A stretch of 61,311 nt of DNA from assembly GCA_903830915.1 (NCBI GenBank), contig CAIKVR010000175.1, forward strand, positions 1 to 61,311. The letters are read 5' to 3'. The notes under the pieces are model-generated. The model was not told the DNA's origin. It did not search any database and was given only the letters and a program-made list of their open reading frames with translations. The translations under genes and the position numbers were made by a program. Shown here piece after piece: positions 2,855 to 45,760 of the stretch (the stretch's first letter is position 1; each line of letters opens with the position of its first letter). The stretch is from an uncultured Bacteroidales bacterium (GTDB lineage: Bacteria > Bacteroidota > Bacteroidia > Bacteroidales > Paludibacteraceae).

Positions 2855-2867
2855 GATTTTCGGGAAT

Positions 2868-6011: not shown

Positions 6012-6081
6012 TGTGCACTTCATATATTTAAGATTAAATTTGAATAGAAAAATTTAACTCATATTCTTAACTTACTCACAA

Positions 6082-6126
6082 CAAAAATAGTTGTAATGAA
6101 TTAATTATGGATTAAAGTTTGATTAA
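6082..6126 (-). promoter_or_regulatory. PUL promoter P1 (susC) with three 11-bp-spaced TTAAT boxes
   Basis: On the minus strand a perfect Bacteroidota -7 element TATTTTTG lies at 6089-6082. Exactly 10 bp upstream begins the first of three TTAAT boxes (plus-strand ATTAA at 6100-6104, 6111-6115 and 6122-6126), each shifted by 11 bp. Spacing and boxes are the same as at 10775-10819 and 42902-42946. No separate -33 TTTG is visible, so transcription probably needs an activator. The expected start is about 65 nt before the susC ATG. Confidence 0.7.
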
Positions 6127-6175
6127 TTATTTTAGTATCAATAAAGAAGAAGCTGAAAATGTTGATTATTTGTGT

Positions 6176-8410
6176 TTAATTCTCTAAACCCCATTCTTTA
6201 TTGGGTTTATCGGCCATTATTAATTCCAGTGTTCCGCCTTCCAGTAACTTTTTGTGAGTAAAAAATGCCGTATTGATCTCTATTCCGTTGAAAAATGCTT
6301 TCTGAATATATTTATTGGTAGCACTTGTACCTTTGGCAATTATTGTAAAAGTGTTTTTATTCGGTAGTTTAATACTTGATTTCTCAAAAACCGGACTACC
6401 AATGGTATAAACCGGCAAACCGGGAGTTACCGGATAAAATCCTAAAGAAGAAAATACTACAAATGCTGACATACCACCACCATCTTCGTCACCCGGAATT
6501 CCAAAGATATTATCTTTAAACCAGACATCAAGCAGGAAACGAATACGTTTTTGAGTTTTCCATGGAGCACCAAAGTAATTGTATAAGTAAGGAATATGAA
6601 GTGAAGGTTCATTACCCATAATATATTGGCCTACCTGACCTGTAGCATCAGGTGCTTCATTCAAATACATTTGTTTCGACATTTCCAATGGCTCACGAAA
6701 TAGCTGATCAAGACGCTCTTCTGCTTTCTTTTTCCCTCCCAATAGAGAAATCAAACCATTTATATCCTGTTGAACTTGCCATGCATAAGTCCAACCATTG
6801 TTTTCGTCGTAATAATCCCTAAATCCGGGACAACCATCCAATTTGGGATTAATCATTATCCATTCCGCTTTTTCATCCTTTGGCATAAAAAGTTGCATTT
6901 GAGGATGCCATAGTTTCTTGTAATTATTGGCAACCTCGGAAAATTTTTTATAATCAGGCTGATTTCCGGTTTCTTTTGCCAATTGAGCCAACGACCAAGC
7001 ATCAAAACTCATTCCTAATGTTACAGCCACTGACTGACGTTTTTCCCAACAATCAACCATTGGTTCGGTTTCCTTTTCACTGGGACGAAGAGCTGGCAGG
7101 AAGCCATTTGTATGATAAAAATCGTCTAATTCTACTTTCGCATTTCCTTGTCTCCATGGCAAAAGAGTGGCTTCTGTCAGATTTTTTTTACAACCTTCGT
7201 AAGCTTTCTTCATATCAAAACCTGCAATACCTTTTCTGTATGCGTCAATAAACAATGACGTGGAATGATAACTATTCATACACATTTGGTTCCCAAGTAC
7301 TTCAGGGAAAGTGGGCATCCAACCACTTTGTTCGTACATTTGTGTGTATGAATTCAGAATGTCACTTTCCATTATAGGATTCAATATTGTGTTTAATGGA
7401 TGTTTGGCCAAATAAGTATCCCAAATCCAATCATCGACAAAAAATGGGCGATCGCTTTTGTGGACTTTCCCATCGTATCCACTGTAGTATTGACCATATT
7501 CATTGATATCAATCATACGTTCATACGTTCGGTAGAGTGAAGTGTAGAATGATCTTTTTTGTGCTTCTGTTCCACCTGTTACTTCAATTTGATTAATAAC
7601 CTTCTCCCATGCCAATTTCCCTTTGGTGACGGTTTGCTCAAAATTTTGATTTGCCATCTCCATAGTGAAATTTCGTTTTGCCTGATCAAAACTAATATAC
7701 GAGATAGCATATTTAATCAAAACAGATTTTTCATTTAAAGCTCCAATACTGATAGATAGTCGATTTTCCGATGGGATGATTTGAATATTTTTCAATATCC
7801 TGCCATTTAAATCTGTTATCTCGCCATAACAATATGCAGACATGGAGCATACTATTGGCGATAGTCCTCTTGTTTTGTATGTGTATTTTTCTTCAATTGT
7901 AAAACCATTCTCGCCAGCATTTTGAGCCTTGAAATTCTCAGTACCTGCAATCAGTATGTTTTTGTTTGTAGATTGAGGAAAATCGATTTTGTAAATAGCA
8001 CACTTCTTAGCCGGAGTGAAACCCACCGTAATTTCGTCTTCAACCAAATAGGTGGAGTAATACCACGGACGAACAACTTCAAGGTCATGATCTATAGCCA
8101 TTTTTCGTTTCCACGATTCGCTGGTTATTTCACCTACCGATACTTTCATTTTCATGATACCTGGTTCGCGATGATTCTCCACCTGCAATGGCCAAGCTGT
8201 TACCTGATCGGCAATATAATCTGGCTTTATTGGAAACATCCGAAGCATCTGATTCGGCAAACTAAAAGTTGGAAAAGTTGGCACTAAGAGTTGTGATACA
8301 TTCCCAATTCTGGGGTCAACGTATTTCGTAAAATCTTCCTGTGCAGAAACATTAAATAGATTGCTCGTGAGTAAAAAGGCTGCTATCAATGTTTTTAAAA
8401 ATCCTTGCAT
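6176..8410 (-). CDS. GH92-family protein, divergent (putative alpha-mannosidase)
   Basis: This is a 744-residue protein with a signal peptide ending near VSAQ. The C-terminal (alpha/alpha)6 barrel has typical GH92 blocks: DDWIWDTYLAKHPL, MGNEPSLHIPYLYNYFGAPWKTQ (Glu601, the position of the catalytic acid in the family) and PGDEDGGGMSAF (residues 641-643 acidic, the region of the catalytic base). GH92 enzymes are calcium-dependent exo-alpha-mannosidases. The N-terminal domain is unusual: it starts FTKYVDPRIGNVSQ and lacks the Gly/His-rich GTGGHGHTFPGA block of its neighbour. It therefore belongs to a different GH92 subgroup and may have another linkage or sugar specificity. It lies 47 bp behind the other GH92 gene, in the same unit. 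Confidence 0.85.
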   Translation of the reverse strand: MQGFLKTLIAAFLLTSNLFNVSAQEDFTKYVDPRIGNVSQLLVPTFPTFSLPNQMLRMFPIKPDYIADQVTAWPLQVENHREPGIMKMKVSVGEITSESWKRKMAIDHDLEVVRPWYYSTYLVEDEITVGFTPAKKCAIYKIDFPQSTNKNILIAGTENFKAQNAGENGFTIEEKYTYKTRGLSPIVCSMSAYCYGEITDLNGRILKNIQIIPSENRLSISIGALNEKSVLIKYAISYISFDQAKRNFTMEMANQNFEQTVTKGKLAWEKVINQIEVTGGTEAQKRSFYTSLYRTYERMIDINEYGQYYSGYDGKVHKSDRPFFVDDWIWDTYLAKHPLNTILNPIMESDILNSYTQMYEQSGWMPTFPEVLGNQMCMNSYHSTSLFIDAYRKGIAGFDMKKAYEGCKKNLTEATLLPWRQGNAKVELDDFYHTNGFLPALRPSEKETEPMVDCWEKRQSVAVTLGMSFDAWSLAQLAKETGNQPDYKKFSEVANNYKKLWHPQMQLFMPKDEKAEWIMINPKLDGCPGFRDYYDENNGWTYAWQVQQDINGLISLLGGKKKAEERLDQLFREPLEMSKQMYLNEAPDATGQVGQYIMGNEPSLHIPYLYNYFGAPWKTQKRIRFLLDVWFKDNIFGIPGDEDGGGMSAFVVFSSLGFYPVTPGLPVYTIGSPVFEKSSIKLPNKNTFTIIAKGTSATNKYIQKAFFNGIEINTAFFTHKKLLEGGTLELIMADKPNKEWGLEN

Positions 8411-8457
8411 AATATTGTATTTTGAATATGACTATTCTTGTGTGTTAGAATTTGGTT

Positions 8458-10731
8458 TTATTTAACTCCCCAATTAATATTTGGAGTACTTCCCATTTCA
8501 ATTTCAATTTTTGACCCTGCCATTAAATCTTTATGTTTTATAATAGGCGTATTAAGTGCCACACCATTAAATTTCACATTTTGGATATATTTGTTTTTTG
8601 CAGAATTATTAGTTACAATAATTTCAATTTTCTTGCCACCAGCGAGTGGTATTGTTACTTTATCGAACAAGGGTCGGCCTAAAGTATATTCCCCACTTGC
8701 AGGACAAACAGGATAAAATCCAATAGCATTCAATACAAACCAGGCTGACATTTGACCACAGTCTTCATTACCTGCCAACCCGTTTGGATCATTAAAATAC
8801 AGTGATTGTTGAATGCTATCCACCAATTGTTGTGTTTTCCAAGGTTGACCTACATAATTATACAAATGTGTAATGTGATGACTCGGCTCATTACCGTGTG
8901 CATATTGTCCAATCAAACCGGATATATCGCTTGATGCCTGACCTAATTGTTCTGACGAAACTGAGAAAAGCGAATCTAATTTATTGATAAATCCCTTTTT
9001 GCCTCCATGAAGTGCAATTAAACCATTCACATCTTGCATCACATACCACGACCATTGCCAGGCATTTCCTTCACAATAATCATCGTTACGATGATTAGAC
9101 ATTTTGGGGTTAAATATTGGGTTCCATTCACCATTCAACATTTTACCTCGCATAAAACCTACATTCTTATCGAAGTATGCTTTGTAAAACATAGCCTTTT
9201 TTGAAAACTCATTGTATTCTTTGTTTTTTCCAAGTGCCTTGGCAAATTGCGCTATACACCAATCGTTATACGCGTATTCTAGGCCTTTTGCTACAGATTC
9301 ATTATCCTTATCGGCTGGACAGTATCCAATGGAATCTTTGTACAATTTTGAAACAGGCATAAACTGATTTTCGAATATTTTCGAATCGATATTACCATTG
9401 TTCAATCGTTGATATTTAGATGCTTTGACACATGCCTCAAACGCCTTTTGTACATCAAAATTCCGGTTGCCTTTCACGTAGGCTTCTACAATCACGGATA
9501 TAGCATGATTGCCAATCATACAACCCGTATAATTTGATGACAAATCCCACATGGGCAGATAGCCTCCCTCATCCTGTTTTCTCAACAAGGTACGTATAAA
9601 GGCTTCGTTTCTTTCGGGTGCGATTAACGTTTGTAATGGATGAAATGCACGGAAAGTATCCCATAACGAGAAAACAGTATAATACTCTTTTTCTTTGCTA
9701 AAATGAATGGTTTTGTCTTGACCACGATAACGTCCATCGACATCCACAAACAGATTGGGACTGATAGCTGTATGATAGAGTGCAGTATAAAAAATCTTTT
9801 TCTGATTTATATTTTTGGTTTCTATCTGAACTTTGGACAATTCAGCGTTCCATCGTGTATTTGTTTCTTTCACAATGGCATCAAAATTCCATTCAGGAAT
9901 TTCCTGCTCAACATTTTTCTTCGCCCCTGTAGCATCCACAGCCGAAATGCCCACTTTTACCATCACCTTTTCATTGTCGGTGGTAGCAAATTGGAGTAAA
10001 GCTTTTACATTGGTTCCTGATATTTCCTTTTGTGATACTATTCTTTCGTCTTCATATACTTTTGCTTGAAAAGGTTTAGAAAACTTTGCATAAAAAAATA
10101 CCGAATGATCTTTGGCCCACCCATTGGTGTTTTTCATTCCCTCAATTTCGGTATCACTGATAATTTTCAGTTTTATTATTGTATTCCTGTGATTTTGCAG
10201 GCTGTGGTTCAAATCTAAAACTATGGCTGCATGCTCTGTTTTCGGGAAAGTGTATCTATGGAAACCAGCTCGTTGAGTGGCAGTAAGTTCGGCTTTCACA
10301 TTGTAGTCCTCCAGCATTACAGCATAATAACCGGGATAAGCTTTTTCAGTTTTGTGCGAAAATTTAGATCGATAACCCGAACGTGGAATTGCTTCATCGC
10401 CACGTTCCATCAATTGACAATTGACAGTAGGCATTAATAAAATATCGCCATAATCGCCTATACCGGTACCGCTGAGGTGAGTATGCGAAAAACCGATGAT
10501 GGTACTATCGGAATAATGATAACCCGAACAAGCATCCCAACCAGCCATACGTGTATCAGGGCTTAGTTGTACCATGCCAAACGGACTAACAGCACCCGGA
10601 AAAGTGTGACCGTGCCCACCAGTGCCAATAAATGGATTTACAAATTGAGTTTTGTTTTGCTGCCCATAGGTATTACCAATGGTCGACGTAAGGAATAAAA
10701 AGAAACCGATTGATACTTGTTTGAAATTCAT
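8458..10731 (-). CDS. GH92-family alpha-mannosidase
   Basis: The protein has 757 residues from the ATG at 10731; the frame extends only to a TTG three codons upstream. The signal peptide ends near NTYGQQ. The mature protein begins with canonical GH92 text (FVNPFIGTGGHGHTFPGA, then MVQLSPDTR). It continues to GNEPSHHITHLYNYVGQPWKTQ (Glu615) and GNEDCGQMSAW (Glu656, Asp657), the acid and base regions of characterised GH92 enzymes. It should remove terminal alpha-mannose residues in the periplasm or at the surface with calcium. It is the first gene of a two-gene GH92 unit, directly behind its own TTAAT-box promoter and isolated from the upstream operon by a terminator. Confidence 0.95.
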   Translation of the reverse strand: MNFKQVSIGFFLFLTSTIGNTYGQQNKTQFVNPFIGTGGHGHTFPGAVSPFGMVQLSPDTRMAGWDACSGYHYSDSTIIGFSHTHLSGTGIGDYGDILLMPTVNCQLMERGDEAIPRSGYRSKFSHKTEKAYPGYYAVMLEDYNVKAELTATQRAGFHRYTFPKTEHAAIVLDLNHSLQNHRNTIIKLKIISDTEIEGMKNTNGWAKDHSVFFYAKFSKPFQAKVYEDERIVSQKEISGTNVKALLQFATTDNEKVMVKVGISAVDATGAKKNVEQEIPEWNFDAIVKETNTRWNAELSKVQIETKNINQKKIFYTALYHTAISPNLFVDVDGRYRGQDKTIHFSKEKEYYTVFSLWDTFRAFHPLQTLIAPERNEAFIRTLLRKQDEGGYLPMWDLSSNYTGCMIGNHAISVIVEAYVKGNRNFDVQKAFEACVKASKYQRLNNGNIDSKIFENQFMPVSKLYKDSIGYCPADKDNESVAKGLEYAYNDWCIAQFAKALGKNKEYNEFSKKAMFYKAYFDKNVGFMRGKMLNGEWNPIFNPKMSNHRNDDYCEGNAWQWSWYVMQDVNGLIALHGGKKGFINKLDSLFSVSSEQLGQASSDISGLIGQYAHGNEPSHHITHLYNYVGQPWKTQQLVDSIQQSLYFNDPNGLAGNEDCGQMSAWFVLNAIGFYPVCPASGEYTLGRPLFDKVTIPLAGGKKIEIIVTNNSAKNKYIQNVKFNGVALNTPIIKHKDLMAGSKIEIEMGSTPNINWGVK

Positions 10732-10774
10732 TTTTTCCAATTAGAAAAGAATTTGATTCTTTATTTATTGGAAA

Positions 10775-10819
10775 CAAAAGTATATTTCGACTATTAATTG
10801 AGACTTAATATTTGATTAA
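10775..10819 (-). promoter_or_regulatory. PUL promoter P2 (GH92 unit) with three 11-bp-spaced boxes
   Basis: A perfect -7 element TACTTTTG occupies 10782-10775 on the minus strand. Ten bp further upstream come the boxes: plus-strand ATTAA at 10793-10797, CTTAA at 10804-10808 (one mismatch) and ATTAA at 10815-10819, exactly 11 bp apart. The 39 bp before the -7 element align without gaps with promoter P1, including a shared TTAATCAAA at the distal box. The predicted start is about 40 nt before the GH92 ATG. Confidence 0.7.
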
Positions 10820-10884
10820 TTGCTGCCCTATTTTGAATTAAATAGTAGAAAAACTGAAAAATAATTTCCATAGAATGTATTTGC

Positions 10885-10915
10885 AAAAAAATAGCCGGGA
10901 TTATAACATCCCGGC
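10885..10915 (-). terminator. Intrinsic terminator after the GH38 gene
   Basis: The stem GCCGGGAT (10894-10901) pairs perfectly with ATCCCGGC (10908-10915) around a 6-nt loop. In minus-strand reading it is followed by a run of seven T (10891-10885). It lies about 40 bp after the GH38 stop codon and separates the long upstream operon from the GH92 unit. Confidence 0.85.
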
Positions 10916-10953
10916 CATCTAAATTAAACATTTCCAATAAGTCAATCCAAAAT

Positions 10954-13900
10954 TTACTTCTGAGTTCTTAGCACAAATTTTCCATTCTCCTTAAAATCAT
11001 CATAGATCGATTGCATCGGTTGTAAGTGATGGGTTGGTGTTGTTGCCACAGTTAATGCCAACAGTTTGATACGATTGTTATCGGGTAGTGTCAAGGTTTT
11101 AGCTCCAACTGGAATTGTAATTTCGTACTTATAAAGATAACAGTACTGATATGCCTCATTCTTTGAAGGATAATTTAAATGACGATGTGAGGCAAACCAA
11201 GCAATATTGTCTGTTTTGACAAATGGGCGTTGCATTTCCACTACCGAATTATTATCACGACTCAAAAACCTTTTGTAGTATTGACCAACATAATCTGCCC
11301 AATTTTGAATTCTAAGTAGTTTAACTTCTCCATCAACCATAAATTTACCCTCTGTATCTCCACTCGATGCGGCCAATAAATAGATTTTAGTAAAATTGCC
11401 AGATGGTAGATTTATAATTTGTCCATTGCAAGCAACTGCATTTTTATCACCATCATTTTTACCTGTTATTGAGAAGCGAATATCTTCACTTACTACCACA
11501 TCCGGTATCAACTCAGCCGGTATGGATCGCTCACCTGCAAAATTACCATCCCACCTATTTTCATCGAAACTAATCACATCTTGATTGCAAGGTAGTACTA
11601 CGGAGGCCTGAACCAAAACTTCAGAAGGTTTAGCTGATTGAAACTTAACCGCAAAACTACGAATGGTATAATGACTTAAATCAAAACTAAGTATACCATT
11701 GTTCACATTTGCGTTTCCTATTCGTTGCTCTTGTCCGTTGACTTCATAAGCATCTACGACATTAGCAGGAAAACTTAGTTTTACGCTTTTGAGGTCTTCG
11801 CCCGAAAGTTCGTTTACTCGTACCAAGTAATAATCTGCATTCTCCATTTTTTTGAATGCCATCAAACCTGCTTGCGGATTATTGATAGAAATCATAGAAA
11901 ACGTTTGACCAAACTTGCCTTCGTGTTTTGGTGTTTCGAAAGCCACCAATGGCTGGTTGAAAAACTTGGCTTGCCAAGGTGATTCAGCTTTTGACCAATT
12001 ACCACTATGTCCAAACACGGCATATTTCACATCATGAATGCCCCAATCCTGTGTGCTTTGATAGGCAAACGAATTGCCCTGGGCATTTGCTTTTGGAGTA
12101 TAAAGCAAGGTCAGGCGCAGTGTATTATCATCAGGCTTATCTGAACCAAACTTACAATCTTCCAGTATAGTGACACCATATTTCCCTGATTTATCTGTCA
12201 AATCAAACCATTCTTTGGAAGGAACTTCGAACTTCTTTTCATTATTATTTCCTCTTTTAATTGTTCCAACGCCAAGGTTATAAGTAGCATTTTCATTCGA
12301 AACCGCCAATGGAAAAGAAGCTTTCAGACACGCTTCGCGTGATTGCCAGTCGATTTTATTTGATACCTCTAATCGTTTACCAGCTTCCCCTGCAGATAAA
12401 CTATAAAATTGTACAATCTCTGAATTCAACCCCTTGCGTTGCACTTTAAGTGTAATACGCACAGGACCTTGCTCCGCAATTGTAATTACAGCATCTTTAT
12501 CCATAAAATCGATGGCCACTTTCTGACGGTCTTTCCAGTCCATGTTCCATGCCGGCCATTCCTTAGGTTGCTCTTGCAAAAATTCCAGTCGTGCCGGCTT
12601 CGATAATAACTCCCTATCTGCTTTTTTATCGAAAATACTCAACACATCTCCATTCATAGCCAATTTTACTTTATAATAACTATTTTCCAACGTGTTATCT
12701 GTAACCGAAAGAGTTGTCGATTTATTGGACAGCGATTCACGGACATCATATACCGCCATTCCGGCTGATGGAACTTGAGCCAGAAACAAAAACTTTATTT
12801 TATTGCCATTCCTTTCTGTAATTTGTGAAGGAACTTCTTTTCCATTTTTATCAAATACAGCTATTGAATTGGGAACTGTGCTATATTCCAGCTGTGCCGT
12901 TACTACATCTTCACGTAGTTTCGCCACCGAATTATAAACTACCACTGATTTACCTTGGGCTTGTGTATTCATTTTTGCAACAATTGCACTTACTCCGTTT
13001 TTCATTACTTCGGCAAACCCATTGGCAGCAATAAACTCATCGTTCCATGCATATTCGTAAGCTTTTGGAATACTTGTTCCAGGCAAAATATCATGAAACT
13101 GACTTCCCAACACCAAATCCCAGGCTTTATTCAACTTTTGAAATGGATAAGCAGCACCTCCCAACCAATCTGCCACTACAGAAACCTGTTCGGCTGATTG
13201 TGCCAACAATTCATTTTTACGATTCATCCGTTTCATAAAGGCCTGTGAAGTCATAGAACCTGCACTGTGCTCTATGAGCAACAAATCACCAGAATAAACA
13301 GGGAGTTTGGCTCTTATCTCTGGAGTAATATCTTTATACATCTGATCTGAAGAACTCAACAACACTTTGAGGTTAGCATCTGGATTATTCAAACTTCCAA
13401 TAGCATTTTTTATATCATTTTCACGTGGTGATCCACCCCGGTCCCCCGAACCATAATAACGATAATCAAAGGCATATCCTGTTTTTTTCTGATTATCATT
13501 TATTCGGTTAATCCATTTATCGGCTTTATCTAATCTTTTTTCAACACTTCCATTGTAATCTGACGCATTTAAAGCAGCGATAATTCCTTTGCCATCAGGG
13601 CCATTCCAAACTCCAACATTAAATGGGACACCTGCTGCAGAATGCCACGTCAATTTTTGAGTGGAGAAACCCAACAATCCGCAATGATTGAAAACCGTAG
13701 GCAAATTGCACAAAAAACCAAAACAATCGGGCAGCATATAATCAACACTCTGTTTTTCAAACTCCTTGCGAAAAAAATCATTACCATAAAGAATCTGACG
13801 CACCAACGATTCAGACGAAGAGATATTCACCTCGCCTTCGTCAACAGAAGAACCGGAAACATGCCAACGACCTTGTTTTACATATTCTTGTACTTTTTTG

Positions 13901-14196: not shown

Positions 14197-14206
14197 TTTT
14201 CTGTAA

Positions 14207-15550: not shown

Positions 15551-15661
15551 CGTATTTTGTATTTATTCATAGTTAAAGTAAACAGCCCTACCCAATTTTC
15601 GAAAGCTATATCACCAAACTTGTTGTATAGGTTTTTTATAATTAAACAATTTTTCCGACCT

Positions 15662-17104: not shown

Positions 17105-17156
17105 AAGATAAAAGTATTAAATATAAAATCATAATATTTGAGAATTGATAAATAAA

Positions 17157-19109: not shown

Positions 19110-19136
19110 TTATGTATTTTAAATTATTAGAAGACT

Positions 19137-22085: not shown

Positions 22086-22189
22086 TGTATTGGTTTGTTT
22101 GTTCATAAAATTCATTTGATATTCAATTCGTCTGATATAATTTTCAATTGGTAATTAGTTATCTGATTTTATGCTGTATTCTTGAAGCA

Positions 22190-25834: not shown

Positions 25835-25917
25835 TATATTTAATGATTCATTTTAAGATTTAGATTGATCGTCAAAATCAACTTGTGTAATTTAATATTT
25901 TCAATTTGCTTTCAATA

Positions 25918-28572: not shown

Positions 28573-28597
28573 TATCAATATTTAAAGATTACCTTAA

Positions 28598-30568: not shown

Positions 30569-30600
30569 TTATTTTATTTTTTAAAAGTTACTTTTTTCTA

Positions 30601-32187: not shown

Positions 32188-32229
32188 TATAATCCATTTT
32201 ATTAATCCTCAAATTCCTATTTAATAAAT

Positions 32230-34149: not shown

Positions 34150-34203
34150 TTACAATTATTTATTCAAATAATACTTTGGGTCATTTTGTTATATCTCCGA
34201 TTC

Positions 34204-37200
34204 TCAATTCTCTATCGCAGTTTTAAGTTGCTCATCAAAAGCTTTGTTATTGCTTTCCATTGTTACACGAATGCTTCCCTGATTAGGTTGTGTAAAAGAA
34301 TTACTCACAGCTTTTATCAGAAAATGATTCCACCCTTGTTTTAATGGAATGCTGTTGTATGTTATTCTTTTTCGGGTATCCTCTTTATCGGCTTTAGTAA
34401 CTTTTAAAGGTCGTCCATTCATCAATACCTTTGCATCGCTATTGACGGTGATCTGAAGTGAAACCTGCGGCAAATCGGGACCCGAATTCAGCAAATCGCT
34501 CAAATCGACAGGTGAAAACACCCAGTAACTGAAATAGGTAGCAAAAACAGTTTCGGGACCCGCTTGAGCCATCTTTTTGAAAATAAACAAGTCATCACCC
34601 ACATTGGTTACCATTTTCCAGGGCATTCCGACCTCTTTTGTATTTTGCTTTGGTTTTACAGTTTCTTCGGGAATGTATTTGGTCGACATTGTGGTTGCTA
34701 AATCGTCACTACCAAAACGTCCCAATGAAAGAGCACGAACCAATACTTTACCTGAAAAAGCTGATACTGTTAAATCTTGTTTTGGATTGAGTTTCAAACC
34801 AATATTTTTAAAGAGTTTAATGTACATATTTACGTGATTTGCACTAATGCCCTCCAATTCAATAGTAGAAACCAGATAATTGCCATTACCTTGTTTGTGT
34901 TCTGCCAATACCGGAGTTTGTTTGTTTTCAAGTTCGGAGCGATAAACACTGATTGTTTTTGAGTATTCACCACCGGTAATCCAACGCAACCATTCCGTAT
35001 TATTACGGAATAACAAGGTATTACCTTTATCAATAAAATCACCTTTCAATGTATAATTGCAAATGGTTTTGTTCACCGCATCTTCTGCAAAATAGAGTTC
35101 TTTATAGTATATGGATGCAGCTCTTGGATCATTCAAATTTGGAACTAATGAAGACGCTTTATCGGGAACACACTGTACGGCAGTTGGCAAAATCTGATTA
35201 GCAATTACCGCTTTCTCAGGGTTTAAACCTACCAATAATACAGTACCACCGTTTTTAATCACCTTGTCTGCTGTCTTCTTTACATCCTCTATTGATTTTT
35301 CATCTATCGTCTTTACATCGATAATCAAGAACTTATTTAATTTGTCGGATTCCACCAATGGCACACCAATCGATTTTAAGTTTGAATAAATACGGGTTTG
35401 TTTGTCACCCATAAAGCTTACCTGATCTATCGGGTTATTTATTTCAGGTGCCTTTATTTCATTCATTTGTTTGTCACGTTGATCCCATTTGCAAGCCTGA
35501 GCGCCATTGGGCGCCATGGCAGATTGCATGGCCGTATAAAGCGGATATGGATTTAGTAATGGTAGTGCTGGATCATAACCCGGATTTAGGGTCAATGAGT
35601 ATGGGGCAATACGCTCCGGCTGAATGCCGGGCTTGCCTTCTGCATAAGGTTCAAAGAAAACACCATCAGTTAGTTTTAACGCTTTTGCTGCAGGATTCTT
35701 TAATCCTAAAGGCAGTGGTTTTAATCCATGCCAAACCAAATTCCAAACATTTAAAACATCGGCACTATCTTTCCGCAAAGTTCTGATAAGGTTATAATCT
35801 TCAATGGCTAAGCCATCCATGCGGTCGTTGAAACTGCGGTATGCTCTATCCCCAACAAATGGTTCGTAATATCCGGCCTTTCCATAGTATGAACTTCCTC
35901 CTTCTGTTACACCCCACGGTTTATTTTTGGGGATTACATCGCTATAAGCTCCTCCGGTATGAATGGTATAAACATTCAATCTACCGTCCAAATCTTTATC
36001 GCCATCGCTTTGTACCCAATCGCGGGTAGGGTCTAATCTTTGGGCTATTTTGGTAAGATCAAAAATTTTATCATAGGTTTTTTGTTGAAAGTCAGGATCA
36101 TTTTTTGCTTGCCAAACCAATACGCAACGTACTTCGTTAGATACACTCCAACCCATTACGGAAGGGTGATTTCTATCACGTCGTACCAAATTCTCTATAT
36201 GTTTCTGATTGCGTTGCCAGAATAGATCCGATTCATAATTAAATCCAACATGACTTCCAAAAATACCACTTTCATCCATTAACAACATTCCCATTTCGTC
36301 AGCCATGTCATAAAAAAAGCTCGGATATGGCATGGCGTGGGGTCGCACCAAATTAATGTATGCATCTTTTGCAATGTTGTACCATGCCCATGCATACCGA
36401 CGTGTCATGGCTGGAATTCCAGTAAAGTGCCAACCTTCGTGCATCAACTGTTCTCGTCTTCCATTAAGCATAACGTGCCCATTCTCAATTTTAATTTCAC
36501 GCCATCCAAAGCGTTGATAGTATTTATCAATCGTATTTTTACCGGATTGTAATTGAGCAACCCCTGCATAAAGATTCGGATTTCCTCGTGTCCAAAGCTC
36601 CCATTTTTTCAATCTTCCTTTTACATCCGCTTTCAGTGTTATTATTTTCTTATGTCCGGGCTCCAAAATTACTTTTTCCGACAACAATTTCATTGTTTCT
36701 TCACCCAATGTCCACGAAATTTCTGGAGCCAGTAACACATTCTGTTTTGAGAGGTCTGTTTTATTTATCCATTCATAAATGGGCAATTGTACCTGAACTT
36801 CTTGTTTCTTGCTGCTATTATTAACCAATTCCACATCTACCAACAAAACATCCTGTTTCAATTGAGGCTGAAAGAACATATCGGTAATATGTACGTTCGG
36901 TTTTGCTAACACAAACACATCCTGCCAAACACCAATAGCATCCATTAGCCAAAAGCTACCGGTTGGATAGGTAATAGAACCATATTTTCCTTTCAGATTA
37001 TTTAATTTCGCGTCCCGTATTCCTAACAAGATTTCATTTTCCTTTCCCCACACTACCGCATTAGTAATATCATATTCTCCGGGCAATGCATTATCAAATT
37101 GTTCGGCAATCTCTTTGTTATTCACGATTATACTACAATCACCTGCTACTGCCTGCAAATGAAGGAAAATACTTTTTCCTTTCCATGATTCAGGTATCGT

Positions 37201-37593
37201 TACTTTTTTGCGGATCCAACCCATTTTGACAGTGTTCCAGCTTTCGGGATATGAGGGATAAGTGCGACTGTCCATACCTTGTCCTGTTTTATCGTGTAAA
37301 ATGGAATTTACATTCCAGGGCGATGGAATTTTTAATCGTACCTTTTCCCATTTATCATCATCCGGCAAGGGTAATTCAGGTTGAACTCCAAGGTCTTTTT
37401 TCCAATTACCCGGTACTTTCACGGGTTGAAACTCCCAATAACCATTTATACATATTTCTTCCCGATAAGGTTTTTCCGGGGCTTTTACCCAACCTTCAGC
37501 TGGTGCCATATCGCGAGTGAATTTTACGCCTTGCCCAAAAGAGGACAAAACTACCAATGAGAATAATGCGGTAAGTGTGATTCTGATTTTCAT
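34204..37593 (-). CDS. GH2-family glycoside hydrolase, multidomain
   Basis: The protein has 1129 residues. The signal peptide ends near SSFGQ. GH2 domains are in order: jelly roll (SIFLHLQAVAGDCSIIVNNKE), immunoglobulin-like, and TIM barrel with acid/base Glu487 in WSVSNEVRC and nucleophile Glu564 in GVTEGGSSYYG. HPSVMGWSVSNEV is the family signature. Behind the barrel is a glutamine-amidotransferase-like region (FLIIDVKTIDEKSIEDVKK, GTVLLVGLNPEKA), and the C-terminal jelly roll holds VNSDAKVLMNGRPLKV. It is a second GH2 in the operon, not closely similar to the 22190 protein, so probably a different linkage. The specific sugar is unresolved. Confidence 0.9.
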   Translation of the reverse strand: MKIRITLTALFSLVVLSSFGQGVKFTRDMAPAEGWVKAPEKPYREEICINGYWEFQPVKVPGNWKKDLGVQPELPLPDDDKWEKVRLKIPSPWNVNSILHDKTGQGMDSRTYPSYPESWNTVKMGWIRKKVTIPESWKGKSIFLHLQAVAGDCSIIVNNKEIAEQFDNALPGEYDITNAVVWGKENEILLGIRDAKLNNLKGKYGSITYPTGSFWLMDAIGVWQDVFVLAKPNVHITDMFFQPQLKQDVLLVDVELVNNSSKKQEVQVQLPIYEWINKTDLSKQNVLLAPEISWTLGEETMKLLSEKVILEPGHKKIITLKADVKGRLKKWELWTRGNPNLYAGVAQLQSGKNTIDKYYQRFGWREIKIENGHVMLNGRREQLMHEGWHFTGIPAMTRRYAWAWYNIAKDAYINLVRPHAMPYPSFFYDMADEMGMLLMDESGIFGSHVGFNYESDLFWQRNQKHIENLVRRDRNHPSVMGWSVSNEVRCVLVWQAKNDPDFQQKTYDKIFDLTKIAQRLDPTRDWVQSDGDKDLDGRLNVYTIHTGGAYSDVIPKNKPWGVTEGGSSYYGKAGYYEPFVGDRAYRSFNDRMDGLAIEDYNLIRTLRKDSADVLNVWNLVWHGLKPLPLGLKNPAAKALKLTDGVFFEPYAEGKPGIQPERIAPYSLTLNPGYDPALPLLNPYPLYTAMQSAMAPNGAQACKWDQRDKQMNEIKAPEINNPIDQVSFMGDKQTRIYSNLKSIGVPLVESDKLNKFLIIDVKTIDEKSIEDVKKTADKVIKNGGTVLLVGLNPEKAVIANQILPTAVQCVPDKASSLVPNLNDPRAASIYYKELYFAEDAVNKTICNYTLKGDFIDKGNTLLFRNNTEWLRWITGGEYSKTISVYRSELENKQTPVLAEHKQGNGNYLVSTIELEGISANHVNMYIKLFKNIGLKLNPKQDLTVSAFSGKVLVRALSLGRFGSDDLATTMSTKYIPEETVKPKQNTKEVGMPWKMVTNVGDDLFIFKKMAQAGPETVFATYFSYWVFSPVDLSDLLNSGPDLPQVSLQITVNSDAKVLMNGRPLKVTKADKEDTRKRITYNSIPLKQGWNHFLIKAVSNSFTQPNQGSIRVTMESNNKAFDEQLKTAIEN

Positions 37594-37635
37594 GTTTTAT
37601 TTTTTTTGTTACTACTTATTTAACCGAGTTTTAAT

Positions 37636-39846
37636 TTATATTTTCCGAACAACGGTAATTTTATCTTTAAGTCGAATATCTTCAGACGAACTTCCTATTA
37701 ACACATCAAAAGTACCAGGTTCCAATACGAATTGGTGGGTTTTTTCATCGTAAAAAGCCAGTTTATCTGCCGGAACTGTAAACGAGACGGTCTTTAGTTC
37801 TCCTGATTTTAGAGATATTTTTTCAAACCCCCGAAGTTCTTTTGCCGGTTTAATTACGCTACATTTCACATCATGCAGATATAGCTGAACAACTTCGTCG
37901 CCTTCTCGTTTTCCAATATTTTCAATCTCCACTCTTACCAATACATTACCATCCTGATTTATCTTTTTAGATGATAATTGCATATTTGAGTATTTGAATC
38001 TTGTATAACTTAAACCATGACCAAATGCAAATAAGGGTTTCCCTTTAAGATACATGTAGGTATAACCTTTGGAAATGTCATATTCATCCTTAGAAGGCAC
38101 CTGATCATCAGATGCATATACAGTCAATGGCATTTTACCACCCGGATTTACATTCCCGAAAATAATGTCAGCAGTAGCATTTCCACTTTCTTCGCCGCCC
38201 CACCAGGCTTCAATCATAGCCGGAACATGCTCCTTTATCCAGGGAACTGCAAGTGGTCCGGCATTCATTTCAACAACTACTGTTTTTGGATTTACTGCCA
38301 TAATAGCTTTCACAAGTTCTTCCTGATTTCCAGGCAATCCAAGTGTTTTTCTATCTAGTCCTTCCGCTTCAGTGCCAAGGGTAGTCCCAATATAGAGTAG
38401 TACCACGTCAGCTTTCTTAGCAATTTCTATTGCTTTTTTAAGTTCAGACTCCCGATTAAAAGGAGTTGGCTTCGGATCTTTTTTCCCATGTTCAAGTGGC
38501 ATTTCTGCTCCTACGGCAAACAAAATATCAGTTCCTTTTGCTGCACGGTTCTTTATTCCTTGCAAAGGTGTAACTGGATTTAGTGCTATTCCGCTATATC
38601 CTCCTACCGTGAATATATTTGCATGTGGTCCAATTACGGCAATTGTTTTAAGTTTGTTTGTATCAAGTGGGAGAAAGTTATTATCATTCTTCAAAAGAAT
38701 TATTGATTTTTGTGCAACCTTAAGTGATAGAGCACGATGTTTCGGACTACAAATAACGCTTAATGGGATTTTGCTATATGTAACCAACTCTGAAGGGTCA
38801 AATTCACCTAACCTAAAGCGATCCTGCATGACACGAAAGACAGCATCATCAAGCCGTTCAAGGGGTAATATTCCCATTTTCACAGCTATGGGTATATACT
38901 CCATAAATTCTTTATCAGAAAAATCGCATCCGGCGATTAATGATTTGGCAACTGCATCCTCATAAGTCATTTTTCCCTTCTCATGACCATTCACCATTGA
39001 TTCAACACCCCCAAGATCAGAAACGACAAATCCTTTAAAACCCCATTGTTTTTTGAGTATATCCGTCAATAAAAATTGATTGATATTGTTAGGAGTGCCG
39101 TTTATAGCATTGTAGGAAGCCATAACAGATTGTGCCTGCCCATCAACAACACAGTCACGAAAATGAGGCAACCAATATTCAAAAAGCATCCTTTCACTAA
39201 CTTTTGCATTTAATTTTAGACGGTCCTTTTCCACATTATTAACTGCATAATGCTTTAATGTTGCAACAAGTTTTAGGTATTTAGGGTCATTTCCCTGAAG
39301 CCCTTTTACATAAGCAACACCCAAACGACCAGTAAGAAAAGGATCTTCACTATAGGTTTCATTTATCCTACCCCAATAAGGATTTCTGCTCACATTTACA
39401 ACCGGAGAACGATAAATCAGACCCTTTTTTTCACCATCAAAATTTGCATCGTTATGCCAAGCATTATAAATTGCACGGGCTTCATCTGAAATCGCAGTGG
39501 CCATTTCATGAATCAAGGTTGGATCCCAAGTGGCGCCCATTGCGATAGAAACAGGAAACATGGTTGTTGGTTTGTTCCACCATACACCGTGAAGGCATTG
39601 GTTCCATTTATCTGATTTAATATTAAACCGAACTAGATCAGGAGCCTTATGATTGAGAAGTTGAGCTTTCTCTTCAAGTGTAAGCCTTGAAATAAGATCA
39701 TTTACACGATTTTCAAACGATTGATTAACATCAAGATACAATGGGGATTGAGTTGATTGTGAATGTAATACCACCCAATGACAAATAAGTAAACAAAGAA
39801 GTATTAGTCTAAGAAAACGACTGTTAATTGAAAATATATTTGACAT
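37636..39846 (-). CDS. GH3-family beta-glycosidase
   Basis: The protein has 736 residues from the ATG at 39846. The frame extends eight codons further upstream, but the chosen start gives the signal peptide directly (MSNIFSINSRFLRLILL). Domain 1 is the GH3 barrel, with KHYAVNN and the nucleophile segment FVVSDLGG (Asp277; the residue after it is Leu where most GH3 have Trp). Domain 2 is the alpha/beta sandwich (GPHANIFTVGGYSG). The fibronectin-III-like C-terminus is present (VVQLYLHDVKCSVIKPAKELRGF). Members are beta-glucosidases, beta-xylosidases and related enzymes; the Leu variant makes assignment harder. It lies between a GH43 and a GH2 gene in the operon. Confidence 0.92.
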   Translation of the reverse strand: MSNIFSINSRFLRLILLCLLICHWVVLHSQSTQSPLYLDVNQSFENRVNDLISRLTLEEKAQLLNHKAPDLVRFNIKSDKWNQCLHGVWWNKPTTMFPVSIAMGATWDPTLIHEMATAISDEARAIYNAWHNDANFDGEKKGLIYRSPVVNVSRNPYWGRINETYSEDPFLTGRLGVAYVKGLQGNDPKYLKLVATLKHYAVNNVEKDRLKLNAKVSERMLFEYWLPHFRDCVVDGQAQSVMASYNAINGTPNNINQFLLTDILKKQWGFKGFVVSDLGGVESMVNGHEKGKMTYEDAVAKSLIAGCDFSDKEFMEYIPIAVKMGILPLERLDDAVFRVMQDRFRLGEFDPSELVTYSKIPLSVICSPKHRALSLKVAQKSIILLKNDNNFLPLDTNKLKTIAVIGPHANIFTVGGYSGIALNPVTPLQGIKNRAAKGTDILFAVGAEMPLEHGKKDPKPTPFNRESELKKAIEIAKKADVVLLYIGTTLGTEAEGLDRKTLGLPGNQEELVKAIMAVNPKTVVVEMNAGPLAVPWIKEHVPAMIEAWWGGEESGNATADIIFGNVNPGGKMPLTVYASDDQVPSKDEYDISKGYTYMYLKGKPLFAFGHGLSYTRFKYSNMQLSSKKINQDGNVLVRVEIENIGKREGDEVVQLYLHDVKCSVIKPAKELRGFEKISLKSGELKTVSFTVPADKLAFYDEKTHQFVLEPGTFDVLIGSSSEDIRLKDKITVVRKI

Positions 39847-39898
39847 AATATCTTCTTTTATATTGTACAAAGTTTAACTTTACGTGATACAATAAACA

Positions 39899-41023
39899 CT
39901 ACCAAGTGACTGTCTGCTTGGTATAACTAGGTTGATTACTGTGTAAATCGCCATTTTTGTCAATCCAAAATGGATCAATACCCAAAAATTCTACACGATA
40001 AGGACCTTTCAGTTTCGCTTCTTTTGTTCCATTTGGAAAAAAATCTTTGTATTGGTGGTCAGGATTTTTATCATCGTAAGGAAGTTCCACATGACAACAA
40101 ATCCAATCCCGTCCATCAGGTCCTTTAAAAATGGTATTATGTCCACAGCCTAAATATGGACTTTGGGGGTCGCCATTGAATTTTGGATTATTCTTGTTTT
40201 GAGCTCCATAGAAAGGACTATTTGCTCCTTTAGTGTACGGACCCAATGGACTTTTTGCCATAGCATACCCAATCTCATATCCTCTTGTGTTTGAAGAGTA
40301 TAGCAAGTAGTAAGTCCCATTTCGTTTGAAAGCCATAGGTCCTTCGATAATTCCGGCATCCCATTTCCCTAATTCGCGATCAATTAACTTCTTCTTTTCT
40401 CCAACAAGTTCCATTTTCTCTAAATCTACTTCGCAACCCCAAATGTCGGAGACAAAAAGATAAGTACGACCATCATCGTCTGTCAACAAACTGGCATCAT
40501 TTGCATTCGCCCAAAGCGGCTTATCAATAGTCGCTATTTTATAAGGTCCGTCTATTTTATCCGACACTGCCACACCCACATTCATGCTTTTGTAAATAGT
40601 TTTACCGCTTAAATCCTGACAATTAAAAGTCAGATAGTATTTTTTGCCCTTTTTATGAATTTCGGGTGCCCAAAATTTCTCCCGATACCAAGCTCCTTCG
40701 GGTACATATTTACTATCTATTAAAACTTTATGGAAATTCCAGTGAAGCAAATCTTTTGAGCGCCACATTTTCACACCAGGCGATAAATCGTCACCATTCT
40801 TAGAACCCCAAAACGGAGGAGCACTTCCAATTAGATAGTACTCACCTTTGTATGGGATAATCTGTGGGTCACGAATGGCAGGAATGTCTTTACTAATAAT
40901 AGGATTCTGATAGGTAAATGAGCGTTTCTCCATCTGTCCTGAAACAGAATTGCTTAACAGTAAATTGAGAACTACTGTTAATAGCATTATTCTTTGAAAG
41001 CTTTTATTTATTTTCACCTCCAT
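39899..41023 (-). CDS. GH43-family glycosidase, single domain
   Basis: The protein has 374 residues from the ATG at 41023, chosen because it is close to the signal peptide (LLLSNSVSGQ); an in-frame start at 41053 would leave only 4 bp after the sulfatase stop. The propeller acids are Asp52 in AIRDPQII, the aspartate in NANDASLLTDDDG, and the glutamate in IIEGPMAFK. EKFWAPEIHKKGKKYYLTF is the GH43 core block. No extra domain follows, so this is a compact exo- or endo-acting GH43. It is the second gene of the long operon, right behind the first sulfatase. Confidence 0.92.
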   Translation of the reverse strand: MEVKINKSFQRIMLLTVVLNLLLSNSVSGQMEKRSFTYQNPIISKDIPAIRDPQIIPYKGEYYLIGSAPPFWGSKNGDDLSPGVKMWRSKDLLHWNFHKVLIDSKYVPEGAWYREKFWAPEIHKKGKKYYLTFNCQDLSGKTIYKSMNVGVAVSDKIDGPYKIATIDKPLWANANDASLLTDDDGRTYLFVSDIWGCEVDLEKMELVGEKKKLIDRELGKWDAGIIEGPMAFKRNGTYYLLYSSNTRGYEIGYAMAKSPLGPYTKGANSPFYGAQNKNNPKFNGDPQSPYLGCGHNTIFKGPDGRDWICCHVELPYDDKNPDHQYKDFFPNGTKEAKLKGPYRVEFLGIDPFWIDKNGDLHSNQPSYTKQTVTW

Positions 41024-41057
41024 AAAATTTATGTTCTCTGTTTGAAACCTCATACTA

Positions 41058-42827
41058 TCAATCTTTTCTTTCCAAACTTACGTAATATGCTCCACACAAA
41101 TCTTTTCCCGTTTGATCTGAGAACCATGCTTGTAGGGTATTTCTCCCTTTAGTTAAAGGTAACTCTACTTCAATAAATTTAGCTTCGGGAATGACATTCA
41201 GTGTTATTACATTATCTTTATTGAGTGTAATATTACCCTTACTAATTGGTAATGCTTTTCCAGGTAGAAGTTTTGTTCCACCAATGGCCTGCTCGGGACC
41301 GGCTACAGTCAATTGTCTATTCAAATGAAATGGCCAACGGCTGAGTTTTACTAAATACTTACCACTTTGAGCTACATCAAGTAAGAAATATCCACCTCGT
41401 GGAGCACCCGCCCCCTCAGCTATCCTTACACGATTATCAACATCATCTCCAATCCAGTTATTTGAAGTCAGTACAACCGGATTCTCTACTTTGGAGCCAA
41501 CTACAACCGGTATCAATTCATCAATACCTGCCGCTAATTTTGCCCACCATTGCTCATAATACGATTTCATATTTTTGAGAATGTCAGGATTAGCCGATGC
41601 TACATTTTTTACTTGTCCGGGGTCGTTGCTGACATCATATAATTCATTACCAGCTACTAATCGCCACGATTTCCACACAACACATCCTTTGTACTTCATA
41701 GGTTTTTGGCGACCGCCATATTGAACCACAAGCATGCGTTCGTTCAGGTTATTTTTTGTGTCTTTTAATAGTGGTTTCAAACTTTTTCCATCAAAATCTG
41801 TGTTTGTCGGTTGTTTTAAACCAATCATATCAATAAATGTGGGTAACAAATCCTGTATCTGGGCAGCCTCATTAACCGTTCGTGGTTTTCCTAACTTGCC
41901 TGCAGGCCAAAGGAAAAAACAAGAAGCCCTATGACCACCATCATAATCAACGCCTTTTCCTCCGCGCATATTGGCATTGTAAACTTTCAACCCTCCTGTT
42001 CCACCATTGTCATTCATTACAACAATAATTGTATTTTCTTTCAATTTATTTTTTATCAACCATTGATCCAGTTTTTCGACGTTTTTATCTATATTCCTAA
42101 TCATTCCAAAGAAGGCGGAAGTATTATTGTCTAAACCCTGTTGTTTATAAAAATTATAGTCTTCTTCAGGAGCAAAGAATGGACCATGTGGGGTATTTGT
42201 AGCTAGGTACGTGAAAAATGGTTGCTTATTCTTACTCATTTCTGTCATCCAGCTCATTGCTTCATCAAACCAAAAATCGGTACAATATTTCATAGAAAAG
42301 TTCGTTTTCGTTCCATCGAGATAACGCACCTGATAATAATCATTATCATACTCCGCTTCCGACGACAAGCCAAAACCTTTGAACCAAACACATTTATCAA
42401 AACCTCTGTCCATAGGTCTATCCGGATAGTTATCACCCAAATGCCATTTACCAAATATCCCTGTTTGATACCCATTATCTTTGAAAATTTGGGGCATAGT
42501 TGGAATATCTCTTTGCATTAGGTTCCGCCCTGCAGGAACCATACAAGCTTTGTTGTGAATAGCATCCATCCCTGTCAGTAGCTGTCCACGTGTGGGTGTA
42601 CTTACCGGCGCCACATGAAAATTACTGAAGCTTACACTTTCGTCGTGAAGTTTATCAAGGTTTGGCGTTTTTAGAATTGGATTTCCATTGCACGAAAAAT
42701 CACCAAAGCCCTGGTCATCCGTAAGTAGTACTATGACATTGGGTTTCTGCTGCGAAAGAGTTGGTAAAGTGGCTGCTACAAACATATTTGCAATTAATAA
42801 GCCTTTTTTACGGTTCAAAATTCCCAT
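41058..42827 (-). CDS. S1-family sulfatase with C-terminal beta-sandwich, serine type
   Basis: The protein has 589 residues. Blocks are VLLTDDQGFGDFSCNG, STPTRGQLLTGMD (Ser76 is the formylglycine site), IFGKWHLGDNYPDRP and MNDNGGTGGLKVYN. The signal is short (AATLPTLSQQ). About 150 residues after the catalytic part form a beta-sandwich (GGYFLLDVAQSGKYLVKLSRWPF). It is the promoter-proximal gene of the long operon: its ATG follows promoter P3 by about 70 nt, so it should be the first enzyme made after induction. It needs an anSME encoded elsewhere. Confidence 0.93.
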   Translation of the reverse strand: MGILNRKKGLLIANMFVAATLPTLSQQKPNVIVLLTDDQGFGDFSCNGNPILKTPNLDKLHDESVSFSNFHVAPVSTPTRGQLLTGMDAIHNKACMVPAGRNLMQRDIPTMPQIFKDNGYQTGIFGKWHLGDNYPDRPMDRGFDKCVWFKGFGLSSEAEYDNDYYQVRYLDGTKTNFSMKYCTDFWFDEAMSWMTEMSKNKQPFFTYLATNTPHGPFFAPEEDYNFYKQQGLDNNTSAFFGMIRNIDKNVEKLDQWLIKNKLKENTIIVVMNDNGGTGGLKVYNANMRGGKGVDYDGGHRASCFFLWPAGKLGKPRTVNEAAQIQDLLPTFIDMIGLKQPTNTDFDGKSLKPLLKDTKNNLNERMLVVQYGGRQKPMKYKGCVVWKSWRLVAGNELYDVSNDPGQVKNVASANPDILKNMKSYYEQWWAKLAAGIDELIPVVVGSKVENPVVLTSNNWIGDDVDNRVRIAEGAGAPRGGYFLLDVAQSGKYLVKLSRWPFHLNRQLTVAGPEQAIGGTKLLPGKALPISKGNITLNKDNVITLNVIPEAKFIEVELPLTKGRNTLQAWFSDQTGKDLCGAYYVSLERKD

Positions 42828-42901
42828 CGTAATTTCTTTTATGTATTAAATTTTTGTACTAAGCATTTCGATTTCCTTTATAAAAAATACTAATGATTGT
42901 G

Positions 42902-42946
42902 CAAATGTATCATGATGCTATTAATTTTAGATTAAATAATAATTAA
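42902..42946 (-). promoter_or_regulatory. PUL promoter P3 (long operon) with three 11-bp-spaced TTAAT boxes
   Basis: The -7 element TACATTTG is at 42909-42902 on the minus strand. Ten bp upstream the boxes begin: plus-strand ATTAA at 42920-42924, 42931-42935 and 42942-42946, all perfect and exactly 11 bp apart. This is the cleanest of the three copies in the window. It lies between the regulator gene and the first sulfatase gene, about 70 nt before that ATG, and no other candidate promoter is visible until 10954. Confidence 0.75.
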
Positions 42947-43077
42947 TGACGCAAATATATTGAAGTATTTTGGGGATTCATGTTTTAGATAGTAGTTTTC
43001 TAACCAAAACAGATATACTTCAATCTTTATCAAAAGAAACAAAGTTTGATTTAGGATTGATAAGCAGGGTTCATATG

Positions 43078-45736: not shown

Positions 45737-45760
45737 TAATATTAAAATGATATTTAAGTG

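Follow-up and report, generated by a model that had tools for sequence, protein, structure and literature searches.

We analyzed a stretch of 61,311 nucleotides (the window) from the genome of an uncultured lake-dwelling Bacteroidales bacterium of the Paludibacteraceae (contig CAIKVR010000175.1), which carries a polysaccharide utilization locus (PUL). Three transcription units of this locus, specifically a 14-gene operon, a pair of genes of glycoside hydrolase (GH) family 92 and the susC/susD genes, are each preceded by three TTAA(T/G) boxes at 11-bp steps, of which the last ends 10 bp before a TAnnTTTG (-7) box (Table 1). In Paludibacter genomes, this element co-occurs with, and often directly adjoins, the gene of a kelch protein whose cytoplasmic part has the fold of the Streptomyces antibiotic regulatory proteins (SARPs). 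Judging from the sequence, the three elements are very probably the operator-promoters of one regulon, read by the neighboring membrane-bound SARP-like regulator as an activator that replaces the -33 contact.

The three 45-bp minus-strand strings align without a gap, as the initial annotation had seen by eye. Eight of the nine boxes are perfect TTAAT and one is TTAAG, and at all three sites the two 11-bp steps are followed by 10 bp and a perfect TAnnTTTG. With up to two mismatches allowed, the window contains these three sites alone, while 100 dinucleotide shuffles of it gave a mean of 0.09 and none reached three. The whole genome (4.74 Mb, 436 contigs, including the window) was scanned with the exact pattern TTAAN7TTAAN7TTAAN11TAnnTTTG, using the reversed pattern as control. 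We found five exact matches, i.e., the three window sites and two further sites on the minus strand of another contig (C215:8369-8413 and C215:14522-14566; G, C and L are our handles for genomes, contigs and loci). The putative regulon comprises at least five such promoters, beyond the three first noted. There are no matches with one mismatch and four with two; at up to three mismatches the control (141) exceeds the observed number (80), so only the exact form is informative in this genome.

All five sites very likely belong to one glycan locus, because a single contig of genome G042 (C404) unites the counterparts of C215 (C404:4108-14380) and of window positions 210-8481 (C404:21007-29277), which lie 6.6 kb apart. 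The sites of the GH92 pair and of susC/susD also have counterparts on C404, and the site of the 14-gene operon has an ortholog in the same genome (L086:5588). The two C215 sites precede two large proteins, one without a Pfam match (L112:12603-14471) and one with Shr-like_HID, PATR and Por_Secre_tail domains (L112:4443-8330).

Among 48 genomes of Paludibacter, taken to be the genus of this bacterium, the exact pattern occurs 56 times in ten genomes, against a single hit of the reversed-pattern control, and the remaining 38 genomes have no site. All else being equal, steps of 10 bp and of 12 bp both gave zero matches. When one mismatch was allowed in seven of the genomes, ten further matches (four in G046, two each in G015 and G037, and one each in G006 and G041) stood against five control matches; they are mostly uncertain and uninformative, save those adjoining a regulator gene (G046, G015).

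We examined the context of 48 distinct sites, the rest of the 56 lying outside the retrieved loci. The initial annotation had expected that the pattern would not be equally frequent at unrelated genes or in coding sequence. Within the genus this holds, as 47 of the 48 sites either stay clear of open reading frames (ORFs) of at least 80 residues or reach no more than 7 bp into one; the sole internal site (L095) rests on a TTG start chosen by the script. It does not hold throughout the order, since other Bacteroidales show the same geometry, with a different box, at unrelated Pho genes (see below). The next ORF begins within 254 bp downstream of the sites. Twenty of the first downstream proteins (two from C215) were scanned, and they include four sulfatases, four metallophosphatases and three GH92 enzymes. 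The others are one each of GH43, GH130, GH99 (below cut-off), cupin, CotH, a SusC-type receptor, a beta-helix protein, a PATR/Por_Secre_tail protein and one protein without a match.

The fixed distance to the -7 box also appears when this box is not used in the search. A search of the genus loci for TTAA[TGC] triples at 11 bp returned 65 triples, of which 42 have TAnnTTTG at a gap of 10 and two at a gap of 21, with no other gap between 0 and 25. Eighteen of the 21 triples without a -7 box are opposite-strand readings of sites having one, which arise because ATTAAT is palindromic. We should note that the 42 is not a genome-wide rate, since the loci were partly chosen for holding sites; the point is that other gaps are missing. 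The base preferences were determined from 43 genus sites and the -33 region from 44 (loci L035-L060 left out, flanks required). Over the 129 boxes of the 43 sites, A precedes TTAA in 96, and the fifth base is T in 86, G in 40, A in two and C in one, so that G is accepted as well.

The Bacteroides primary promoter consists of TAnnTTTG at -7 and TTTG near -33, as described in the part of PMC7366714 available to us, and the -7 box of the elements is this ordinary primary-sigma element. A clear -33 box had already been found missing in the window. In the genus, TTTG lies 17-23 bp before the -7 box in none of the 44 sites, compared with 33 of the 628 other TAnnTTTG strings of the same loci, and TTG in one of the 44 compared with 97 of the 628. 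The contrast is a weak one, because the fixed boxes leave less room for TTTG or TTG.

The presumed reader of the elements is encoded next to the 14-gene operon, read from the ATG at 45736. The initial annotation had called it a SARP-type regulator, which is correct at the fold level: the AlphaFold2 (AF2) model of residues 591-846 (predicted local distance difference test, pLDDT, 93.8) combines an OmpR-type winged helix with a BTAD helical domain. In a Foldseek search of these residues against the PDB, all six chains with E <1e-3 are EmbR or AfsR, at 13-16% sequence identity. Structural alignments over 232-235 of the 256 residues have Z scores of 14.4-15.1 (EmbR 15.1, AfsR 14.9), and the next chain reaches 9.9 over 73 residues. 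The full-length model (pLDDT 88.0, predicted template modeling score 0.61) shows a beta-rich N-terminal domain, a propeller matching kelch structures, a helix at residues 553-580 and the cytoplasmic part. From this predicted topology, the ectodomain would face the periplasm. At the sequence level, Pfam at E 0.01 finds only kelch-type models in 43196-45763, and no histidine kinase, receiver or AraC domain. Neither NCBIfam, searched with the regulator, nor the PDB sequences, searched with its C-terminus, gave anything useful, and the kinship is visible mainly by fold. In the 30 rows of the family profile (A2), Pfam finds BTAD in three (best E 2.4e-4) and Trans_reg_C in one (0.0061). The protein is thus a fold-level relative of SARPs that is not filed as a SARP by its sequence, and that most likely works like one. 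Residues of the third helix that are invariant in the family, or nearly so, include N78, R80, V82, L87 and R88 (counted within the 256-residue piece); such conservation would be expected with a DNA word that scarcely changes. The cytoplasmic part has one match at E <=1e-5 in its own genome. Upstream of the regulator gene, at about 45949-46190 on the minus strand, we noted by eye what looks like a remnant of the end of an IS66-type transposase.

Co-occurrence and adjacency in the genus point to this kelch protein as the reader of the sites. Close ('strong') relatives of the regulator, defined by at least 170 bits over the cytoplasmic part, are present in 11 of the 48 genomes. The site is found in nine of these 11, versus one of the other 37 (Fisher's test, 3e-7, uncorrected for relatedness). 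The lone site-bearing genome without a strong regulator (G041) is also the source of the single control hit. The genus loci contain 14 close regulators, and behind ten of them a site lies 34-253 bp from the last codon, pointing at the next operon. Sites were counted as adjacent with at most one box mismatch, a perfect -7 box and a gap of exactly 10; seven of the ten are exact and three have one box mismatch. The four regulators without an adjacent site are L089 (at a contig end), L093 (frameshifted), and L097 and L098 (both in G037).

Table 1. Regulator, candidate operator-promoters and transcription units in the window
Feature	Position	Strand	Remarks
Candidate operator-promoter, 14-gene operon	42902..42946	-	TTAAT 42942-42946, 42931-42935, 42920-42924; -7 box TACATTTG 42902-42909
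Candidate operator-promoter, GH92 pair	10775..10819	-	TTAAT 10815-10819, TTAAG 10804-10808, TTAAT 10793-10797; -7 box TACTTTTG 10775-10782
Candidate operator-promoter, susC/susD	6082..6126	-	TTAAT 6122-6126, 6111-6115, 6100-6104; -7 box TATTTTTG 6082-6089
Regulator, 846 aa	43199..45736	-	N-terminal hydrophobic segment, beta-rich domain, kelch propeller, one predicted transmembrane helix, cytoplasmic SARP-like part
Ectodomain, residues ~28-545	44102..45655	-	beta-rich domain and kelch propeller; Pfam Kelch_4, AF2
Predicted transmembrane helix, residues ~553-580	43997..44080	-	by eye from sequence; helix in AF2 model
Predicted winged-helix DNA-binding domain, residues ~603-700	43637..43930	-	conserved helix SARNNRNVNFSKLR; AF2/Foldseek
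Predicted BTAD-like helical domain, residues ~707-842	43211..43618	-	AF2/Foldseek
14-gene operon	10954..42827	-	sulfatases, GH43, GH3, GH2, GH38, others; intergenic gaps 4-111 bp
GH92 pair	6176..10740	-	two genes
susC-like and susD-like genes	1001..6023	-	susC-like 2868-6023, susD-like 1001-2890

The regulator family extends beyond Paludibacter. The profile of the cytoplasmic part, run on 393 Bacteroidales genomes, found relatives in at least 29 of them, at no fewer than 49 places including the own one; these counts are lower bounds, the best six first-look candidates having been scored for most genomes. Around the 48 other regulators, loci of up to 20 kb each (873,540 bp) contain 34 strand-readings of triples at a lag of 11 bp, representing 19 distinct places in 15 loci, while each of the lags 7-10 and 12-18 yields 0-6 readings. 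Within 600 bp of the regulator gene, nine of the 48 loci have an exact triple at lag 11, one has it at lag 12 and none has it at lags 8-10 or 13-15; when up to one mismatch is tolerated, the corresponding numbers are 19, nine and 0-4 loci.

The lag-12 triples are found beside regulators of Seramator, Proteiniphilum, Parabacteroides and others, and eight of their ten readings have T[AT]nnTTTG at a gap of 10 (one of these as TAnnTTTG). We also noted closely similar 12-bp-step operators behind the regulator, 10 bp before TTnnTTTG, at L134:10854, L135:10883, L138:10884, L140:3017 and L141:11006 (Seramator, Proteiniphilum, Parabacteroides and relatives). A tree of 79 regulators, limited to rows with at least 150 matched model positions, unites the six loci that have a lag-12 triple next to the regulator in a single clade (100/98), and lag 11 is scattered over distant branches. 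The 11-bp step therefore looks ancestral and the 12-bp step derived, at least in the lag-12 clade; three loci with a remoter lag-12 triple (L131, L132, L203) branch elsewhere. Around ten weak homologues, a scan that does not presuppose the word gave nothing notable at lags 11 and 12 beyond a few high scores at lag 12. In the class (395 genomes), the regulator has a match in four genomes that do not belong to the order. Two of these matches are full-length and accompanied by an exact triple in the sequence examined, L299 at 11 bp and L300 at 12 bp, neither with a perfect TAnnTTTG at gap 10. L301 is a weaker match without a triple, and L302 (G541, from another order) is a short fragment that contains the final part of a regulator gene as well as an exact site including the -7 box. 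The operator of L302 is nearly identical to that of Paludibacter G001 (L094), suggesting transfer or contamination of the assembled genome.

A number of results weigh against the kelch protein as the reader of these elements. The Pfam models BTAD (PF03704) and Trans_reg_C (PF00486) are both absent from the window protein at E 0.01. In the genus, G043 has a regulator that is 67% identical and no site even at one mismatch (the regulator lies 146 bp from a contig end), and the two closer regulators of G037 have no adjoining site, the sites of this genome being on another contig. The regulator of G018 (L093) is frameshifted, and no site was found there at one mismatch; this genome may have lost regulator and operator jointly, unless an assembly error or its completeness of 83% accounts for both. 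In the order as a whole, a widened pattern (B as fifth base, T[AT]nnTTTG) is borne by 30 of 364 genomes without a detected regulator, several times at Pho genes, and the 40 loci retrieved around such order-level sites, six of them from regulator-bearing genomes, contain no regulator relative. Around the 48 other regulators, only four of the 34 lag-11 readings have T[AT]nnTTTG at gap 10, and one has it at gap 11. Furthermore, the sequence examined around 45 of the 79 regulators of the tree contains no exact triple, and a word-agnostic scan of those 45 loci revealed no other repeat (0, 1, 0, 1, 3, 0, 0, 0 at lags 8 to 15). Finally, the initial annotation had found no promoters other than the three elements. 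This is true between the 19 listed PUL genes, whose 18 gaps hold only the TAnnTTTG of the sites at 6082 and 10775 on the same strand (with none on the minus strand in any of the 13 internal gaps of the 14-gene operon), but the leader of this operon has a second TAnnTTTG at 42952-42959 (minus strand), between the regulator gene and the first operator and just upstream of the latter.

The main rival interpretation takes the triples as Pho boxes, or as boxes of another response regulator of the OmpR/PhoB type, in which case the PUL would answer a phosphate or two-component signal and not the kelch protein. The widened pattern, with which the Pho-type sites were gathered, has 53 matches in 38 of the 393 genomes versus four in controls, and at least one of the 53 (in G421) is a simple tandem repeat. 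Eight of the 38 genomes have the regulator and 30 do not (Fisher's test, 0.003). The 11/11/10 geometry before T[AT]nnTTTG is present upstream of pstS in other Bacteroidales (three of three scanned proteins match PstS models) and upstream of genes for response regulators with Response_reg and Trans_reg_C domains (five of five scanned). Two of these response regulators were run against NCBIfam and match PhoB models best, below the cut-offs of the models, and the four metallophosphatases among the 20 scanned genus proteins fit a phosphate response too. The geometry of the Pho-type sites is partly imposed, since the same pattern collected them; the independent part is the 53 matches against four controls and the recurrence of Pho genes. 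PhoB-type activators thus seem to use the same geometry in Bacteroidales, in keeping with the winged-helix fold that they have. A single 11/11/10 triple does not prove a kelch regulator. The boxes, however, are different. In 14 Pho-type sites (eight at pstS or response-regulator genes), C precedes TTAA in 24 of 42 boxes, the fifth base is C in 23 and T in 19, and AT comes next in 19, whereas in the genus A comes before TTAA in 96 of 129 boxes and the fifth base is T or G in 126 of the 129. This composition departs from the CTTAA[CT] of the Pho type, and the own pstS has no triple upstream. In addition, 36 of the 37 Paludibacter genomes lacking a strong regulator have no site (the phoB status of the 37 was not checked), and the genus sites adjoin the kelch regulator gene. 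We consider the Pho interpretation unlikely for these elements.

The Pho-type sites themselves, found in several Bacteroidales, suggest a candidate Pho box for the order, in which three TTAA[CT] boxes, commonly with a C in front, follow one another at 11-bp steps and end 10 bp upstream of T[AT]nnTTTG (pstS: L253, L267, L268; PhoB-like: L266, L272, L276, L278, L286). Other sites of the same geometry were noted in the order. Genome G292, of the same family, has near-identical TTAAG-type triples at L274:9984 and L275:10009, with the kelch regulator undetected, one of which precedes an ORF of 748 residues. Back-to-back triples at L279:10023/10048 and a single similar site at L280:2165 lie upstream of a conserved ORF of 45 residues (MYIQIDP..).

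The remaining explanations are less probable still. A repressor that binds the triples and blocks the -33 region until the glycan arrives would agree with the overlap between the boxes and the place of a -33 contact. On the other hand, a perfect -7 box without a -33 element presumably needs help and not blocking, and the structure of AfsR on repeats of this kind shows an activating initiation complex, as far as PMC10936776 describes it. We hold repression to be very improbable. A slightly smaller chance still is given to promoters without a dedicated activator, relying either on DNA structure (phased AT tracts, UP-element-like bending) or on an alternative sigma factor. The boxes are indeed AT-rich and in helical phase, in an AT-rich genome (37% G+C in the window), but the word and the gap are exact, 10- and 12-bp steps are absent in the genus, 38 of the 48 genomes have no site and its presence tracks one protein family. 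An alternative sigma factor is at odds with the -7 box, which is the primary-sigma TAnnTTTG in PMC7366714. A chance alignment, which the initial annotation had held to be not likely, could only appeal to the pattern falling below the control frequency at up to three mismatches. Five exact matches in the genome compare with about 0.02 expected (from the genus control of one in 48 genomes; Poisson, 3e-11) and, together with the null results for 10- and 12-bp steps and the window shuffles (0.09 at two mismatches), leave chance next to no credence.

A close parallel to the proposed activator-operator system is found in the SARPs. These proteins bind direct repeats spaced by 11 or 22 bp, of which the 3' one is 8 bp away from the -10 element; in the case of AfsR, two neighboring protomers occupy 11-bp direct repeats and cover the -35 region of a promoter with poor elements, touching region 4 of sigma (PMC10936776, in the part available). 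The regulator shares with them the winged-helix and BTAD fold, and its candidate sites are likewise 11-bp repeats just upstream of a -10-type element, over a poor or missing upstream element. The initial annotation had equated both geometries. The 11-bp step does agree; the distance is 10 bp from the 5-bp box to TAnnTTTG as opposed to 8 bp to the -10 element, and would equal 8 if the repeat unit were 7 bp long. Further differences are the number of boxes (three, compared with two in the afs box), the TTAA(T/G) word, the 12-bp variant in one clade, the membrane-spanning architecture with a kelch ectodomain and the low sequence identity to SARP structures.

PhoB is a winged-helix activator as well, binding 11-bp direct repeats before a -10-type element (the E. 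coli Pho box), and Bacteroidales Pho promoters share the 11/11/10 layout. It differs from the regulator in its two-component receiver domain, its box and its genes. ToxR, TcpP and CadC are transmembrane one-component activators with a membrane-tethered winged helix and a periplasmic part, and the TcpP chain 9gdr_H is listed at Z 7.9 for the model of the cytoplasmic part. Unlike in these proteins, the DNA-binding domain is C-terminal here (a reversed order), and a BTAD-like domain is present. As in hybrid two-component systems (HTCS) and SusR-like regulators, sensor and DNA-binding part are combined in one polypeptide, encoded beside the controlled PUL. HTCS have a kinase, a receiver and an AraC domain. 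Their repeats consist of two sites of 12-16 bp with spacers of 5-9 bp, and SusR-like sites are 67 or 77 bp apart (PMC3878776, in the part available). The Pfam domains of the regulator do not agree with an HTCS. Control by an extracytoplasmic function (ECF) sigma/anti-sigma pair does not fit either, considering the primary-sigma -7 box and the fact that none of the 28 window proteins scanned (a subset of the window ORFs) matches a sigma factor in Pfam. We obtained no evidence for a SARP gene in some Bacteroides mannan PULs; the available part of PMC3878776 lists BT2628 and BT3786 as HTCS. The terms 'SARP' and 'kelch' are both absent from the main text of this source, and in the literature searched, which covers few subscription journals, we found neither the operator nor SARP- or kelch-type regulators of Bacteroidota PULs described.

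In the mechanism that we propose, the three ATTAA(T/G) boxes would lie on one face of the helix owing to their 11-bp steps and be bound head-to-tail by the cytoplasmic SARP-like domains of three copies of the 43199-45736 protein. With the last box ending 10 bp before TAnnTTTG, the bound array would cover the place of the missing -33 element and could contact RNA polymerase or sigma there, as AfsR does. An array of three protomers standing in for the -33 contact is the simplest reading, by analogy with AfsR. The kelch ectodomain may sense, directly or indirectly, a periplasmic glycan fragment, and because no kinase or receiver domain was found, we infer that the signal crosses the single membrane helix without phosphorylation. 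The enzymes of the PUL (GH92, GH38, GH43, GH2, GH3, sulfatases and SusCD) look like a set for a mannan-type, sulfated glycan.

Membrane-spanning, one-component, SARP-like PUL regulators are apparently an undescribed class. We think it probable, though with less assurance than for the regulon in the window, that such an unnamed class exists throughout the Bacteroidota, uniting a periplasmic kelch sensor and a cytoplasmic SARP-fold activator in one polypeptide. Many of its members would read three TTAA boxes one turn apart before a -7 box, and one clade (Seramator, Proteiniphilum, Parabacteroides and relatives) would have shifted to 12-bp steps; if so, the contacts between protomers must have co-evolved with the spacing.

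PUL control has so far been described mainly via HTCS, SusR-like and ECF systems, to which a further class would be added here. The activation geometry of SARPs would be carried beyond the actinobacteria into a phylum with a different promoter and joined to a transmembrane sensor that is free of a phosphorelay. As the predicted operator is short and searchable, regulons could be read directly from genomes, and the element might be of use as an orthogonal inducible promoter for Bacteroidales. The switch from 11 to 12 bp in one clade would offer a natural test of the way in which winged-helix activators bound in tandem gauge their spacing.

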